From positions 182,435 through 246,434 of the forward strand of contig NZ_CP042809.1 in the NCBI RefSeq assembly GCF_004014775.2: a stretch of 64,000 bases of DNA, written 5' to 3'. Below the pieces are notes generated by a model. That model saw only the letters and a program-made list of their open reading frames with translations. It did no database searches and was not told the DNA's origin. The stretch comes from Acetobacter oryzoeni (GTDB lineage Bacteria; Pseudomonadota; Alphaproteobacteria; Acetobacterales; Acetobacteraceae). The translations under genes were made by a program, and so were the position numbers. This document shows positions 36,163 through 42,955 of the stretch, one piece after another. The number at the start of each line of letters is the position of its first letter. Within the stretch, counting starts at the first letter, position 1.

Positions 36163-36758
36163 TTATGCATCAAAAGACGGGTCGGATGGGAATTCTGTCA
36201 TCGGTTTGAGTGTATCAGAGGAGCGGGCAATTCTGGAGACAGCACTTTCACTGAGCCCATAGGTTGTTGCCAAAGACTTAAGTGTCGTTCTGTTTTTTCT
36301 TTTTGCTCTGATGTCCCGTTTTTGCGCAACGGTCAGTCTGGATGGACGTCCCATTTGCTTTCCCTGCTGGATAGCTCTTACGCGACCCTCGGAAGTTCTG
36401 GTTCTGATCAGATCGCGTTCCACATCAGCAAGGCCTCCGAGGACAGCAAGCATTAGCCGCCCAGTGCTGGTGCTGGTGTCAGTCCATGGTTCAGCTATTG
36501 AATGAAACTGTGCCTTTTGATTCGTAATTTCTTTCACTATAGAAAAGAGATCGAAAGTACTGCGGGCAAGTCTGTCAATACGGGTGACAACCACGATGTC
36601 ACCTTCAGTAACCGAAGCAATCAGCTTTTTGAGCTGTAAACGCTCGGCATTCGCACCGCTCGCTTTTTCGCGATAAATTTTCACGCACCCAAACTCTTTT
36701 AAAGTTTTTACTTGTATATCAAGGGTCTGACCCGCGCATATCCTATTTTTCGCCCCAT
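36163..36758 (-). pseudogene. Serine recombinase (resolvase/invertase) lacking its catalytic serine
   Basis: Closely related to the intact recombinase at 36884-37516. The original start is the ATG at 36756-36758 (MGRKIGYARV). A 13-base loss right after GGTCAG removes the codons that in the paralogue encode Ser-Thr-Val-Gly and shifts the frame. The rest continues as TLDIQVKTLKEFG, RIDRLARSTFDLF and LADVERDLIRTRTSEG with a C-terminal HTH. A GTG-started frame from 36765 bypasses the shift but still lacks the YARVS serine, so no recombinase activity is expected. It is divergent from its paralogue. Confidence 0.82.
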
Positions 36759-36883
36759 GACCCACCCATTTACCTTGTAGAAAAGGGACACCTTATCACA
36801 ATACTTGTTTGATTAATTCCTGATTTGCGCAAATCAGGATTTTTGCAAGGAACTTTTGAACATTCTCAGTCGTTTAAGCCCGA

Positions 36884-37516
36884 ATGCAACCAGAGATAAC
36901 ACGTCGTAAAGTTGGATATGCCCGTGTCAGCACAGTAGGGCAGACTCTTGAACTTCAACTGAAAACACTTAAGGAATTCGGATGCCGTCGTATCTATCGT
37001 GAGAAAGCAAGTGGTGCAGATGCTACGCGTCCTGAACTATGTAAATTGCTTGCCAACCTTAAGCCTGGTCAAACCGTAGTCGTTACCCGTCTGGATCGAC
37101 TGGCACGCAGTACATTTGATCTCTTCTCTATCGTAAAGACAATTACTGATCGTAAGGCTCAGTTTTACTCTTTAGCTGAACCCTGGACTGACACCAACAC
37201 AAGTACAGGTCGGCTTATGCTTGCAGTCCTTGGTGGCTTGGCCGATGTGGAGCGCGATCTTATCCGTACACGCACCTCAGAAGGACGTGCACGTGCCATT
37301 AAGCAAGGCAAACGCATGGGAAGACCATCTCAGATTACAGACTTACAAAAGCATAAAATCATTGAAAGACGAAAAGAGGGGGAGTCCCTGAAATCGATCG
37401 CTGCTGCATTTGGAATCAGTGAAAGCACTGTCTCTCGCCTAGCTCGTGGCAGAGACAGCCATCACCATTATGGTCGGAAAATCGAGAAAGCTCGTAAATC
37501 TTACGGCATATCATGA
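36884..37516 (+). CDS. Serine recombinase (resolvase/DNA-invertase family)
   Basis: A 210-residue serine recombinase, intact. The catalytic serine is in KVGYARVSTVGQ (Ser16). Arginine motifs are TRLDRLARSTFDL and GGLADVERDLIRTRTSEGR, and the C-terminal HTH is SIAAAFGISESTVSRLARG. Such proteins resolve plasmid dimers or cointegrates, or invert DNA. The 125-bp gap to the divergent pseudogene is a plausible crossover/regulatory site. A degraded Tn3-type transposase tail may follow near 37800-37910, so it could be the resolvase of a lost transposon. Confidence 0.88.
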   Translation: MQPEITRRKVGYARVSTVGQTLELQLKTLKEFGCRRIYREKASGADATRPELCKLLANLKPGQTVVVTRLDRLARSTFDLFSIVKTITDRKAQFYSLAEPWTDTNTSTGRLMLAVLGGLADVERDLIRTRTSEGRARAIKQGKRMGRPSQITDLQKHKIIERRKEGESLKSIAAAFGISESTVSRLARGRDSHHHYGRKIEKARKSYGIS

Positions 37517-38134
37517 GGTAGATAGCGCTTGGTGAACTCAAAGCTGTGATTTTGGCCATGTTGAGGAACGTACCGACAATGCGGGTTTTTGATTGATACC
37601 TGATGCATCTCATGCAGATCGTGCTTTTTCAGTCAGGAAGTAGCACAATGCAATCTGCATCTTCGGCAGCCGATATGGTAATGCCCTGGAACCTGAACTT
37701 TGCGGCCTATGGCTATTTCTCGTTGGATCACACGACAATTTCTTCTGAACGTCTGCTCCAAACCATTCTGGTTAAACAGCAATGAGCCCACCGGATGATG
37801 CCAGAAGATTATCGCAGACTCACGTTGCTGATTTATAACCACGTCAATTCTTAATGGGCATTTCGAGCTGGATCTGGACACGTGGATAGATTTTGACGTT
37901 CTAGCCGTATGAGAGGAAAAATTCTCATAACATTAGGGGGCTCTTTCTTTACACTGGGATTCAACGATCCCACGAATATTACCAGTAATATTCAACGCGG
38001 TAATAAGATATTATTTTGTATTATATGATAATTTTAAAAATTAAATAACAATAAAATTTCGAAATTTTGGCAAAATAAAATCATTATTATTGAGTTTTTT
38101 ACTTAAGTTATCAATGATTTGGAATAATGGAAAA
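37517..38134. other. Noncoding, partly transposase-like, then AT-rich leader
   Basis: Around 37797-37911 two overlapping frames read LTLLIYNHVNS and HFELDLDTWIDFDVLAV, resembling the extreme C-terminus of a Tn3-type transposase broken by one frameshift (low confidence). From about 37930 the sequence turns strongly AT-rich up to the next gene, a sign of foreign origin, and should contain that gene's promoter. Confidence 0.35.
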
Positions 38135-40195
38135 ATGTCGGATCTTTTCTCAAACATTTCCTCTTCGCATTCTGGACCACTTACTGTGTTTCAAGCACAG
38201 TTAAAAACTTATCGGCAGCAGAACTGGTCCGAGGTTTTCAAGGGGTATTCTGCTTTACGTGCGATTACCTTTTCAAGTTCTCTGGAATTTTTGCTCGATC
38301 TGACAGAACAGTTTAAAGATATCGAAATTGTTTTTGGCTCTGAGCATATTCTGACCAAAACCCATATTGCTTTGGCTCAAGCCAGTCAGCTTTTTGAAGA
38401 CTACGGGTTTAAGGACTGTCTCACAGATCAAAAATCGCTTGTAGAAAGCTTACGTCAACTTCTTGGGTTACGCAGCAGTCTCTTTCTTCCGCGTTTGCAA
38501 AATGGTACCTTGCGTTTCAGGCTTCTGACTGGCCGGCCAAGTCATGAAAAACTTTATTTGCTATCAGGTTCCAACGGTCAACGCGTTATCACAGGATCCG
38601 CTAATCTCAGTATAGCGGCTTTCCATGGGCATCAACATGAAGTCATCATCACTTTTGATGATTTAGCAGCGTGGGATGCTTTTGATGAATATTACCAACG
38701 TGACTACAAAAAAAGTGTTGCAATCGAAAGGGATATTTTGATCAGCGTGTCTTCTGACGGCAAGAATAAACAGCCTGATATCTCTACAACATCCCTTCCT
38801 TACGAGGATGTTCCCATCGTGCGTGCGATACGGGCCGGGCTGGTTCATGTCGAACAGGGTGGTATGTCGATTTCAGAGGGAATAACCATTGATACGTTAC
38901 GAAAGGCTCAACGCTTACGGCAGGAACTTGAAACAATTTCTCTGCCGATGAGCCGCAAGGGGGTAACGTTGGTCACTCCCACAATCGTTTCAACTTTTCT
39001 GCAGGCACGCAATAATCTGCCTGCTGTGGACTCTCCGAAAGATGAAATTCCACGGGCCTCCCTCTCTGTTCGGACAGGAGAGATTTTTCTCAATGATCAG
39101 TTATGGCTTTCTGAAAAAGATACCATTTCAGAACATGACGTTGCCCGAGATGTACATCTGCTTGTGAATTATATCAGCAGTTTTTCGGCATTTTATGGAA
39201 ATAGCCAAAGTGCCATCGCCTCCTACTGGGCATTTCTGGTCTGGCTTTACATGGCACCTTTTGCACCGTTTTTAAGACAAGGAGCCGTTAGTCATCATAT
39301 CGATCCGTGGCTTTATCCCCCGTACGCGGTTTTATATGGCCGCTCCAGTGGTGGGAAAACCCTGTTTACGCAGATTATTGCACAATCCATGTTCGGGGTT
39401 GTCAAAAGTATTCAGTCATCAATGTTTACGGCACAACGTGTTTTGGGCTTACGTCAGCAATTAGGGGCCATTCCTCTGTTGATTGATGACGTGACGCCAG
39501 ATCGAATGAGTAAATATGTGCCTGACATGGTGCGTACTGATCGGGATATGGCCGAATGCTACGCACCTATCGTCCTGACGACCAACAAGGACGTGACAAG
39601 CATTTCAGCTGATCTGACCAAACGGATGGTGACGTGTCACATTGATGCCTCTCTCCCGGATAGTCGAGCGCTTCAGACGGAAAGTCCCCGTCGTTTACAA
39701 AAAGAAATCGGGACAGCTTTATACCGGCGTTATCTGACTCTTATGTTCCCTCGCGTTCGAGATATGCGGATCGAGATGGATCAGAGTGATGGCAAGCAGA
39801 TTCCAGATGTTTTTACGGTGTCGTCTCATCTCTTGTTGTCGTTGATAGAACAACACCTTCCTGTAAAGCCAGACTGGGTTTGTCCTCTTTCTTATCGAAC
39901 CTATCAAGCTATGCGGGCTGTTCAGTTCCAACGTGTGCTTGTCGAAATGATTAGAAGTCATCCTGAAAACATCGCTCTGTCGCGAGACAAGCGCTTTATG
40001 CAAGTGCGCTTTGGTGGAGATATTCGCCAAGCCATGGCATTTGAAAAATCTGTACCAGAATTTGTTTCCAAAGGGCGCATTGCAGATACCGTCAAGCTGG
40101 ATATTCAAGCAATGGAAAATGAGCTGGGATTTTCTCCAATTCATCATAGTTCACTGGTTGAGAGGCTTATGAAAGTTTGGAGGAAGCGTAAGTAA
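38135..40195 (+). CDS. PLD-like nuclease motif fused to P-loop ATPase; uncharacterised
   Basis: A large orphan protein of 686 residues from the ATG at 38135. ATG 38114 and TTG 38090 are possible in-frame starts, and none has a strong ribosome site. Near residue 137 it has a single phospholipase-D-type HxK motif, SHEKLYLLSG, followed by GSANLS, as in single-HKD nucleases that work as dimers. Around residues 402-409 is a Walker A, GRSSGGKT; then Walker B PLLIDD (448-452) and a sensor-like VLTTNK. The rest is helical. I do not recognise a named family. The fusion of nuclease and ATPase, solitary placement, AT-rich leader and recombinase neighbours suggest an anti-phage or plasmid-competition function, but this is inference. 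An SF3-helicase-like replication role is an alternative. Confidence 0.6.
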   Translation: MSDLFSNISSSHSGPLTVFQAQLKTYRQQNWSEVFKGYSALRAITFSSSLEFLLDLTEQFKDIEIVFGSEHILTKTHIALAQASQLFEDYGFKDCLTDQKSLVESLRQLLGLRSSLFLPRLQNGTLRFRLLTGRPSHEKLYLLSGSNGQRVITGSANLSIAAFHGHQHEVIITFDDLAAWDAFDEYYQRDYKKSVAIERDILISVSSDGKNKQPDISTTSLPYEDVPIVRAIRAGLVHVEQGGMSISEGITIDTLRKAQRLRQELETISLPMSRKGVTLVTPTIVSTFLQARNNLPAVDSPKDEIPRASLSVRTGEIFLNDQLWLSEKDTISEHDVARDVHLLVNYISSFSAFYGNSQSAIASYWAFLVWLYMAPFAPFLRQGAVSHHIDPWLYPPYAVLYGRSSGGKTLFTQIIAQSMFGVVKSIQSSMFTAQRVLGLRQQLGAIPLLIDDVTPDRMSKYVPDMVRTDRDMAECYAPIVLTTNKDVTSISADLTKRMVTCHIDASLPDSRALQTESPRRLQKEIGTALYRRYLTLMFPRVRDMRIEMDQSDGKQIPDVFTVSSHLLLSLIEQHLPVKPDWVCPLSYRTYQAMRAVQFQRVLVEMIRSHPENIALSRDKRFMQVRFGGDIRQAMAFEKSVPEFVSKGRIADTVKLDIQAMENELGFSPIHHSSLVERLMKVWRKRK

Positions 40196-40883
40196 TTAAT
40201 GCATCAGAAGCTGGTGTTTGTTTCGTGACAAATTGGATTGTCCATGTCCTTGCGGCACAGTGACAAAGTAACTGAGGATTTCCCCATGACTGCCGATCTG
40301 AACTGGTATGTCTGGCTTTTGCCCTAAGTTCTTTGAAATCGCAATCAAGGCGGTTACCCTTGTCTTCCAGCGTTCCTGCTGGAAACCGTTGTCGTGCAGA
40401 CGTAGTAAAGCATATTCCGGTCAGAATAGAGAAAACCGGGCGACATAGATAAGTCCCATAGAACGATTGTTTCTCACGTGGTGATGCCTTGCCAAACAGA
40501 GCCGAACAAACTCCGATCTGCTGTTGTTGTCGAAGATAAATAGTTCCCACCTGAATGGTCAAACATCATGCTTATTCCTCTGACCGACGACGAGAATCTC
40601 GTTATTCCAGATCTGGCGGTTCGGATTGATCCGAGTGCTAATAATGGATGTTCAAAGCTATGTTGGGCAGTCAGCGTCTTATTGACAACTACATCCAAGC
40701 ATCGTCTCCGTGTAACCGGAAGCAAGGTGCGTCCTGACCAGTTACTCGCAATCAGACGTCAGATTGCTTTGTTGGTCGGAGCTGATGGCTAGATTGAATT
40801 GCCCCAAGTTTTGTGGTGACAGCAAGACCCGGAGCAACTCAGATAGAGCCAGCGGCAAAGCGGCAGTCAATGACGAGTGTCTT
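40196..40883. other. Region without a confident gene
   Basis: A 74-codon plus-strand frame at 40568-40792 starts MLIPLTDDENLVIPDLAVR; it may be a small real gene or a fragment, and I cannot assign it. The rest (40196-40567) shows only short frames with no family resemblance. Confidence 0.3.
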
Positions 40884-41396
40884 ATGATGCATGCCATCGC
40901 GACGTTATTTAAGTCTGGTCGAACAATGACGCCCGACCAGGCGCGTCGTGAAGCTCTGTCGCTCCGTGAACCAACACGCCAGGAACTGCAATCCGGGATT
41001 GATGCGGACAACAGAACACTGAACGCAGGCCAGGCAGATAGTGCCACGTTGAAAGAACTCAGGGGCTTACGGGGAGAACTGAAAGCTTTGGAAAGCGACA
41101 CGCAGGTTGGCGCCGTTCTGCGTCATATCGATCAAGCCCAAAAGGCGGGCATTGAAAAGCTGACCGTTCTCCCCGGCCGCGACGGTTCTGCGCGTGACGC
41201 CATTTATGCCATCGGGCGGGCTGCCGTGCGTAGTCTTGACTTGCAGGACGATCAACGAGCAGTGCAAGGTATGAGTGCCGAGCAGACACGATCACCTGCA
41301 TCGTGGTTCAATCGGGCCAGCCAGAAACTTTCTGGGTCGGAAGAAACACCTCCTCAGCCAAATAGCCCAAAATCACGTGGCCCGCAGTTTGGCTAG
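40884..41396 (+). CDS. Hypothetical protein, helical, plasmid-type
   Basis: About 170 residues from the ATG at 40884; the open frame extends to 40764. The protein is charged, Ala/Leu/Arg-rich and probably largely helical (QSGIDADNRTLNAGQADSA, then ELRGLRGELKALESDTQVG). It has a Pro/Ser-rich C-terminus and no signal peptide or membrane segment. I do not recognise the family. It could be the C-terminal part of a larger mobilisation or replication protein whose 5' end was lost. It converges on the RHE_PE00001-type gene with a 12-bp gap. Confidence 0.45.
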   Translation: MMHAIATLFKSGRTMTPDQARREALSLREPTRQELQSGIDADNRTLNAGQADSATLKELRGLRGELKALESDTQVGAVLRHIDQAQKAGIEKLTVLPGRDGSARDAIYAIGRAAVRSLDLQDDQRAVQGMSAEQTRSPASWFNRASQKLSGSEETPPQPNSPKSRGPQFG

Positions 41397-41408
41397 TTCT
41401 TGCTGAAT

Positions 41409-42494
41409 TTAATCAGGCCGATGGCGTCTGATCACACGTTCTGCGTGATCTATCGCACGCTCCAGTTCCTCATAATTAATGGGAGCAAACGTGGGCGCCG
41501 GCTCTACCGGCCGGATGTCCACGTTCTCATCTGGAGGACAGGTTTCCTGACTTTCTTTTTTTCTCGGTCGCCCACGTTTTCTGCCTGGTTGGGGTCTTTT
41601 AGGGGGCCTGACAATCTCGCGAAGAGGTTCCAGATCTTTCAGGGCGAACAGACGTCGCGCCGCGCGATGTGTGACTTCAACAATCAGCCCCATTTCCAGA
41701 AAACGTTCCAGATAGATGTAGGCAGCTTTGAGCGACAGGCCGAGCTCAGCTGAGAGGCGTGTTGCCGAGACCACTGGATAGGCTGCGAGAAGGTCTACCA
41801 CCTTGTCAGCGCGCGAGGTGCGACGTTGGCCACCCGATTTTGATCTGGCCTGACGCCAGCTTTGTTCCAGAGTCCGTGTGCGGTCCTCAACGGCCGCGAT
41901 TTCTTCATTCAGACAGTTCAGGAAAAAAGGGAGCCATGCAGTTGGGCTCCAAGGTGCTTCCGGTACGAAGGATCTGGCTCCAACAAGGGGAAGCGGAAAA
42001 TGAAGAACATTGGTCAGGCGCCAGTGACGGATCAAAGCGGCGCGCATCGGGGCACGAGCATGTCCTGCTTCTATCCAGGCATGAAAGGCTCGGGCGGAGC
42101 CAAGAAGAGGGCCTAATCTGACACTATGCTTGCTGAGCCAACCTGAAGCCTCTTCTATCGCGTTGCGTTGCGTATCTGTTGGCCTAACCAACCACTGATA
42201 TTGCTCAAACGCAGCGTGGAGAGCGTCCACAGACGTTCCGCGTTCATAAATATCACATCCGAGTGGTACTGATCTCAAACCTTCCAATTCCGCCGCCAAC
42301 CGCCACGGATCTATGAGATGGCCATCGACTGCTGCACAGGCTCTTGCAGCTTCCAGCTGCTCCCGAAACAGGATTGCAGGGAGGAGAGGATGATGACGCA
42401 GGCGCTGATCAAGTCTGCCTATGGCCAGCCCCGTCTGGCTGAGGCTTTCGTATAACTTTCCGTCAGGAGATTTAACTGAGGCTGTCCGGAACAT
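41409..42494 (-). CDS. RHE_PE00001 family (DUF1612-type) HTH protein
   Basis: A 361-residue protein resembling the RHE_PE00001 family found on rhizobial and other alphaproteobacterial plasmids. Typical features: PLLPAILFREQLEAARACAA with DGHLIDPWRLAAELEGL, then ARAPMRAALIRHWRLTNVL, a C-terminal winged helix (VVSATRLSAELGLSLKAAYIYLE) and a basic AT-hook-like tail (GRKRGRPRKK). Its function is unknown; DNA binding is likely. Its end abuts the hypothetical gene on the other strand. It starts 3 bp after the truncated relE gene, suggesting co-transcription with relB. Confidence 0.78.
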   Translation of the reverse strand: MFRTASVKSPDGKLYESLSQTGLAIGRLDQRLRHHPLLPAILFREQLEAARACAAVDGHLIDPWRLAAELEGLRSVPLGCDIYERGTSVDALHAAFEQYQWLVRPTDTQRNAIEEASGWLSKHSVRLGPLLGSARAFHAWIEAGHARAPMRAALIRHWRLTNVLHFPLPLVGARSFVPEAPWSPTAWLPFFLNCLNEEIAAVEDRTRTLEQSWRQARSKSGGQRRTSRADKVVDLLAAYPVVSATRLSAELGLSLKAAYIYLERFLEMGLIVEVTHRAARRLFALKDLEPLREIVRPPKRPQPGRKRGRPRKKESQETCPPDENVDIRPVEPAPTFAPINYEELERAIDHAERVIRRHRPD

Positions 42495-42496
42495 GC

Positions 42497-42640
42497 TCAG
42501 ACGCGGCGGGTTGCATCGTCGTAAACCTCATTGGCATCCCTGCGTCCAATCGCAACAACCAGCACTATGAGTTTCCCCTCATGAACCTGATACACCAGCC
42601 GATATCCGGAAGCTCGACGTTTGATTTTATAGCAGCTCAC
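42497..42640 (-). pseudogene. relE: RelE-type toxin, N-terminus missing
   Basis: Only the last 47 codons of a RelE/ParE-fold mRNA interferase remain: SCYKIKRRASGYRLVYQVHE, then VAIGRRDANEVYDDATRRV. The upstream half is deleted so that the relB stop abuts the conserved CYKIK strand. A GTG at 42638-42640 overlaps the relB stop as GTGA and could start a 47-residue peptide. Without the N-terminal helices it should not be an active toxin. Confidence 0.75.
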
Positions 42641-42879
42641 AGATCGTCCAATGAAACCGGAATAGACGGTTCAGGCGAGGCAAGACGCTCTCGAACGACG
42701 GGAAGAAGCTCCAGACCGTCATCCGATACAACAGTGCGCCGGACAGGGAGCTTGCCAGTAGCGACGACATATTCAACGGTCTGGCGGATAAGATCTGAGG
42801 ATGTCACGCCGAGTTCTGACAGACGATCGTATGCAGCTTTCTTCAGACTGTCATCGATGCACAGGTTAATTGAAGCCAT
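42637..42879 (-). CDS. relB: RelB/DinJ-type antitoxin
   Basis: An 80-residue antitoxin with an N-terminal ribbon-helix-helix (MASINLCIDDSLKKAAYDRL, SSDLIRQTVEYV) and a C-terminal toxin-wrapping segment ending PSIPVSLDDL. The ATG at 42877-42879 is preferred because a GGAGG ribosome site precedes it. The open frame starts 7 codons earlier. It normally pairs with relE to repress the operon. Here the toxin is truncated. Confidence 0.82.
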   Translation of the reverse strand: MASINLCIDDSLKKAAYDRLSELGVTSSDLIRQTVEYVVATGKLPVRRTVVSDDGLELLPVVRERLASPEPSIPVSLDDL

Positions 42880-42955
42880 GATGTGTCCTCCAACAAACAC
42901 ATCATCTGATTATGCCTTTACATTTGCAAAGACAAATTAATAAGGACTGTGACTA

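Follow-up and report, generated by a model that had tools for sequence, protein, structure and literature searches.

A single-gene homologue of haloarchaeal AgaP in Acetobacter oryzoeni, with a predicted PLD nuclease joined to a predicted AAA+ motor

The gene and its predicted domains

We analysed a 64,000-nucleotide stretch of Acetobacter oryzoeni DNA (contig NZ_CP042809.1, positions 182,435 to 246,434; hereafter the window), focusing on one gene whose product carries a phospholipase D (PLD)-type motif and a P-loop ATPase (Table 1). An earlier sequence-only reading had placed a single PLD motif and this ATPase in one intact frame of about 690 residues, and this was confirmed: the frame is uninterrupted on the + strand, and from the ATG at 38135 it encodes 686 amino acids. 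The program-made open reading frame (ORF) uses a TTG lying 15 codons upstream (38090; 701 amino acids), but the start at 38135 is likelier because many relatives also begin near an xDLF stretch. The same reading had noted an AT-rich leader and a position between a serine recombinase and plasmid-type genes, and both observations held, the leader being poorer in GC than the ORF (45.6%) and the whole window (53.2%). A scan for promoters and terminators showed no clear excess of either (8 versus 5.2, standard deviation 2.2, and 3 versus 2.6, standard deviation 1.4, respectively).

Pfam family PF09565 (RE_NgoFVII) was called in the window protein above its cut-off (E = 1.9e-6; 27.7 bits against 23.8), and PLDc_2 was matched below its own (E = 7.8e-5). 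An alignment of 43 rows, comprising the query and a chosen set from 120 listed relatives, showed no variation at any of the 13 checked residues, which come from both halves of the protein. Because PF09565 passed its cut-off and these residues were invariant, the motifs cannot be attributed to chance. The structure model, which like all models used here is of a monomer, placed the HxK motif within a PLD fold, supporting the earlier proposal of a PLD nuclease joined to an ATPase. No ATPase family was called in the Pfam scan, despite a plain P-loop, an acidic pair (in PLLIDD, residues 447-452), an Asn (N484, in a TTN) and an Arg. The best fold matches of modelled residues 306-601 were the MCM/superfamily 3 (SF3)-type AAA+ helicases SCCmec Cch and SaPI Rep, both of which act in replication and are not known to carry a PLD nuclease; sequence searches of solved structures, with the single protein and with two profiles (A1, of its clade, and A4, of AgaP-type proteins), returned only chance-level matches. 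With Walker A, Walker B, the Asn, the Arg and the predicted fold of an MCM/SF3-type AAA+ protein all present, the window protein is very probably a nuclease-motor enzyme of PLD and AAA+ parts.

Table 1. Features of the PLD-ATPase gene and its upstream neighbour in the window (P0142 is an AgaP-type protein described below; fractions give rows with the residue)
Feature	Position	Strand	Remark
PLD nuclease-AAA+ ATPase fusion gene, 686 amino acids	38135..40195 (stop included)	+	intact ORF
PLD fold, residues 28-197	38216..38725	+	predicted
H137-E-K139, first half of PLD catalytic motif	38543..38551	+	H, K 43/43; aligned with H105/K107 of P0142
G154-S-A-N157, second half of PLD motif	38594..38605	+	G, S, N 43/43; aligned with GSxN of P0142
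MCM/SF3-type AAA+ ATPase fold, residues 306-601	39050..39937	+	predicted
Walker A GRSSGGKT, residues 402-409	39338..39361	+	G402, G407, K408, T409 43/43
Walker B LLIDD, residues 448-452	39476..39490	+	D451, D452 43/43
N484, putative sensor-1-type Asn	39584..39586	+	43/43; aligned with P0142 N530 (64/64)
R497, putative arginine-finger-type Arg (from AAA+/SF3 knowledge)	39623..39625	+	43/43; aligned with P0142 R541 (64/64)
AT-rich leader, 38.7% GC	37517..38134	.	
Serine recombinase (resolvase), upstream neighbour	36884..37516	+	Pfam Resolvase E=7.2e-41

Relatives, AgaP and Argonaute

The sequence-only reading had matched the protein to no named family, which proved wrong, as RE_NgoFVII, PF27394 and AgaP all match it; the family is already catalogued, as Pfam PF27394. 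A protein search gave 303 matches at E <= 1e-3 among 8000 candidates scored. The best 120 all carried PF27394 and were relatives over their whole length, covering 95-100% of the query at 47-96% identity. A search with a broad alignment (A3) gave 230 matches, with PF27394 in 115 of the best 120. In plasmid records searched with tblastn at E <= 1e-5, matches were found in Acetobacter (3), Komagataeibacter (3) and Thermus (the ATPase part, E = 3e-13), and raising the limit to E = 10 added Athalassotoga, Ligilactobacillus and haloarchaeal plasmids at individually weak values (2e-4 to 1). Five of these added records (L034-L038) encode proteins of 664-715 amino acids, all with the PLD before the P-loop, and comparison of these with the A1 profile gave a probability of 99.6 (E = 2e-24). 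A simple pattern scan of 19 proteins found an HxK-type and a GSxN-type motif in every one and a Walker A pattern in 17, with GKD aligned at that place in the other two (L048 and L051); in L053 the pattern-found HxK (160) follows GSMN (125), yet the alignment places HSK before GSMN. Relatives thus far located lie in Acetobacteraceae, metagenome-assembled genomes (MAGs) of Acidobacteriota and Alphaproteobacteria, Lactobacillaceae, Arcobacter, Athalassotoga, Thermus and haloarchaea, a taxonomic spread that goes beyond a single plasmid family.

Other candidate assignments were rejected. Known defence libraries yielded no confident match, the best in PADLOC being ZacB (E = 0.0015), which matched just the PLD part, and DolB (E = 0.012), which matched just the P-loop part, and NCBIfam BriC (E = 0.0015) fell far below its cut-off. 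PbeA, weakly matched in PADLOC by two relatives, was set aside since its paper describes PLD and type III Res/helicase domains. PHROGs held no match for the window protein, phage records held none at E <= 1e-5, and none of eight stretches of viral contigs that fitted a pattern was confirmed.

PLD proteins encoded in operons with prokaryotic Argonautes (pAgo) were reported earlier (PMC6299218), and AgaP is described as a PLD protein that works alongside long-A Argonautes in the APAP system (PMC11442185). According to that paper, AgaP acts against a plasmid and a virus; it is toxic by itself through its PLD site, this toxicity is relieved when the Argonaute partner is present, and the PLD residues are needed, with pAgo, for plasmid restriction. 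Its authors could not obtain soluble, stable AgaP from E. coli (PMC11442185). We located AgaP on Natrinema pellirubrum plasmid pNATPE02 as a frame of 717 amino acids (L041:4816-6969) that opens 64 bp after the Piwi frame and fits all nine residues numbered in PMC11442185. The gene table of the plasmid lists at this place only a 375-amino-acid hypothetical protein and two antisense frames, and lists the Piwi gene short as well.

Profile comparison with hhalign, between A1 and 64 AgaP-type proteins (A4) led by P0142, which is 86% identical to N. pellirubrum AgaP, gave a probability of 99.35 (E = 6e-21) over residues 29-683. The halves also aligned separately, the PLD half at 98.9 (E = 2e-17) and the ATPase half at 97.8 (E = 1e-12). 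Residues 520-686 by themselves gave a non-significant 11% against the AgaP-type proteins, and three controls (two reversed, one mismatched) all remained below 1%. In the AgaP-type rows 11 of 12 checked residues were invariant (H105, K107, G157, S158, N160, G445, G450, K451, D497, N530 and R541, each 64/64), and D496 was present in 43 of 64. K451 is the Walker A lysine, which is K453 in AgaP itself. By these alignments the window protein is homologous to AgaP over its full length and in each half separately. The two share the order of PLD and P-loop AAA+ parts, the catalytic residues, a length of about 700 amino acids and a location on plasmids. They differ in the distance from HxK to GSxN, about 50 residues in AgaP but 14 in the window protein (K139 to G154), although this spacing is not universal, being short in the Argonaute-adjacent L038, L044 and L049 as well; and identity to AgaP-type proteins is remote (17% to L038).

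The C-terminal half of a close AgaP homologue was also modelled as an MCM/SF3-type AAA+ helicase. A term search limited to the main text of PMC11442185 found no occurrence of ATPase, P-loop, Walker, AAA, NTPase or ATP-binding, and the helicase mentions shown (6 places) concern other proteins. Among the papers listed by our literature search, whose scope stopped short of subscription papers and outside preprints, none described a motor for AgaP. The alignments and models suggest that AgaP-type proteins are helicase-like nucleases.

We compared how close these genes lie to Argonaute. Two of the first haloarchaeal loci have a Piwi gene adjoining the PLD-ATPase gene or one gene off. Among the 14 haloarchaeal plasmid copies whose surroundings were examined (the listing had 19 haloarchaeal records, five of them outside this set), Piwi was adjacent or one gene away in six (L035, L038, L041, L042, L044 and L049) and absent beside the gene in eight (L036, L043, L045-L048, L050 and L051). 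Piwi was not annotated within the stretch examined of the bacterial records L034, L037, L052, L053 and Thermus L015. A search for Piwi (PF02171), which found 6 of 6 positive controls, detected none in the 10 genomes with a long A1-type frame, the window's own included, and none over the cut-off in another 17 genomes or records (eight haloarchaeal plasmids, five bacterial ones and the four MAGs of L010-L013), absence being weaker evidence where a genome is a draft or a record a single plasmid. A weak match below the cut-off (E = 1.6e-6) was seen on Halapricum plasmid pHSR-Est01 (L058, 130370-131167), far from the PLD-ATPase. Because an Argonaute operon was looked for and not found, we did not class the window protein as a member of APAP. 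In a tree of 28 rows the bacterial rows lay on one side of a branch and the Argonaute label needed at least three changes; its long branches and odd composition kept us from drawing a history of Argonaute gain or loss.

Five closely related Piwi-less haloarchaeal copies (L043, L045 and L046, also L036 and L047) share a block in the order PD-(D/E)XK nuclease, ATP-dependent helicase, a 375-amino-acid hypothetical protein on the opposite strand, PLD-ATPase and DEAD helicase; three of the five also have a ThiF adenylyltransferase. This block may be a separate multi-gene system.

Distribution and genomic surroundings

The gene sits on plasmids of acetic acid bacteria and in environmental contigs. 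In a sample of Acetobacteraceae, 12 of 397 genomes had any match (seven long open frames and five fragments or contig-edge pieces), and in a phylum sample only the window's own copy was found, in 1 of 398. By genus, it was present in 3 of 49 Acetobacter genomes, in 9 of 19 Komagataeibacter genomes (six full-length) and in 1 of 5 genomes of the genus of G271, and twelve loci were located by DNA patterns in the GTDB collection. Comparison with four Komagataeibacter copies gave a proportion of synonymous differences (pS) of 0.77-0.80, which is saturated, and of nonsynonymous differences (pN) of 0.13-0.14; proportions were used because saturation of the synonymous rate (dS) left no estimate possible. 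The gene is under purifying selection.

Disrupted and split copies were also found. The copy of K. xylinus E25 has a transposase beneath the match, and in Thermus the PLD and ATPase frames stand apart, with a hypothetical gene and a transposase gene between them. Of nine records of Ligilactobacillus salivarius plasmids, two hold the full-length gene in one piece, and an IS3 transposase lies beneath the match in four. The Athalassotoga copy (L037:7920-9914) has two helicases and a DNA methyltransferase nearby, so that its locus resembles a restriction or DISARM-like one, and that of an Arcobacter plasmid (L052:7758-9851) is transcribed away from parA/parB, close to replication genes.

The loci examined gave no sign of clustering in defence islands. 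In five other loci (MAG contigs L010-L013, and L054 of Acetobacteraceae), whose neighbours were assessed by eye, without a family search, on the initial 50 residues of their frames, no defence gene was seen beside the gene and the neighbours looked ordinary. In two Acidobacteriota MAGs, similar frames of 444-465 amino acids lie directly upstream of the PLD-ATPase gene (L010:528-1925 and L011:1651-2985).

The window lies in contig C2 of a genome with 4 contigs (3.15 Mb). We consider this contig plasmid-like because three Acetobacter plasmid records hold the same protein at 99.4-99.6% identity; an A. pomorum contig holds it at 100%. Two similar serine resolvase genes lie back to back upstream, at 36163-36765 (-) and 36884-37516 (+). 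The downstream region (40477-42900) contains PemK/MazF toxin-gene-like DNA, a Fic-family stretch (so annotated in other Acetobacter plasmids) and a RelB antitoxin frame.

Candidate functions and comparison with known systems

Several characterized systems resemble the window protein in part. SauUSI likewise joins an N-terminal PLD nuclease to an ATPase motor in one polypeptide, but its ATPase is SF2 helicase-like and it includes an SRA target domain (PMC7913695), whereas the motor of the window protein best matches MCM/SF3 AAA+ folds and Pfam detected no SRA domain in it at E <= 1. In NgoAVII a PLD subunit with a B3 target domain works with a separate SF2 ATPase subunit (PMC7913695), whereas the window protein has its AAA+ part in the same chain, an addition that also sets it apart from the PLD restriction nucleases NgoFVII and BfiI. 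SauUSI and BfiI are described as dimers (PMC7913695). Because BrxL of BREX carries an MCM-type AAA+ domain (PMC12839542), motors of this type do occur in defence. DdmDE, in which an Argonaute and a helicase-nuclease destroy plasmids, resembles pAgo with AgaP in how it works (PMC12904381; text and table of that paper name the two proteins opposite ways round). The window protein differs from DdmDE in having no Argonaute. The DdmDE helicase-nuclease is, moreover, not known to be related.

The reading we favour, with moderate confidence, is that the window protein is a single-protein, ATP-driven nuclease-helicase that would limit invading or competing DNA, namely other plasmids and perhaps phages. 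The sequence-only reading had proposed a defence or plasmid-competition factor; of that proposal, its occurrence as a single gene on plasmids and the activity of its distant relative AgaP against a plasmid and a virus lend support, and the claim that it lacked a named family fell. Such a role is about evenly balanced in our judgement, and by analogy the protein is probably a stand-alone version of an AgaP-type defence enzyme. The ATPase half would assemble a ring, load on DNA (single-stranded DNA, forks or origins) and translocate; PLD domains would pair between protomers to cut; and ATP or DNA structure would gate the nuclease. Control and targeting would both have to come from the ATPase half alone in the Acetobacter clade that is free of Argonaute.

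An abortive-infection or addiction-type toxin, in which the nuclease is restrained by its own ATPase half or by an unseen host factor until a trigger leads to destruction of DNA and death of the cell or of plasmid-free daughters, is an unlikely alternative to which the toxicity of AgaP alone through its PLD site (PMC11442185) and several toxin-antitoxin genes near the copies of acetic acid bacteria do point. It agrees poorly with the account in PMC11442185 that pAgo with AgaP caused no noticeable abortive infection. Over roughly 255 bp upstream of the gene, the window and six Komagataeibacter loci also show little conservation, which speaks against a partner upstream. It is slightly less likely still that the protein maintains plasmid or chromosomal DNA, by repair of DNA-protein links, fork rescue or dimer resolution. 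In favour of such a role, PLD folds include the tyrosyl-DNA phosphodiesterases (several haloarchaeal copies are so annotated), solitary copies occur in environmental bacterial contigs and the motor is MCM-like. Against it speak the very patchy spread in the family and phylum samples, the existence of disrupted copies and the single HKD motif of the window protein, as in Nuc, BfiI and NgoAVII, where Tdp1 has two.

Rolling-circle Rep proteins combine a nickase with an SF3-like helicase. This architecture, and the identity of the best fold matches as mobile-element helicases, would suit a plasmid replication initiator similar to HUH-Rep/SF3 proteins, with PLD replacing HUH as the nicking domain, but we regard such a function as very improbable. 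The host plasmids pKOB3 and pKNA08 carry their own RepA and ParA, those of Ligilactobacillus and Arcobacter their own replication genes, and stand-alone copies are found in environmental contigs. Direct repeats (iterons) were absent from 37500-38200 and 40150-40900 in a scan that diverged or more distant repeats could escape, and plasmids are what AgaP restricts, with pAgo (PMC11442185).

Beyond the nuclease-helicase proposed for the window, we tentatively suggest that AgaP-type proteins may be cross-domain ring-helicase nucleases, of PLD and MCM/SF3 AAA+ parts, that destroy plasmid or phage DNA. Argonaute would then be an optional aiming module in some haloarchaea, bacterial clades would act alone, and pAgo with AgaP would be an analogue of DdmDE made from unrelated parts. 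If this is true, AgaP's own motor would explain how it could act on double-stranded plasmid DNA, and plasmid-plasmid conflict in food bacteria would be tied to Argonaute immunity. The window protein would also provide a mesophilic, readily cultured bacterial model for an AgaP-type protein, in which it can be asked directly whether such a protein clears DNA without Argonaute.
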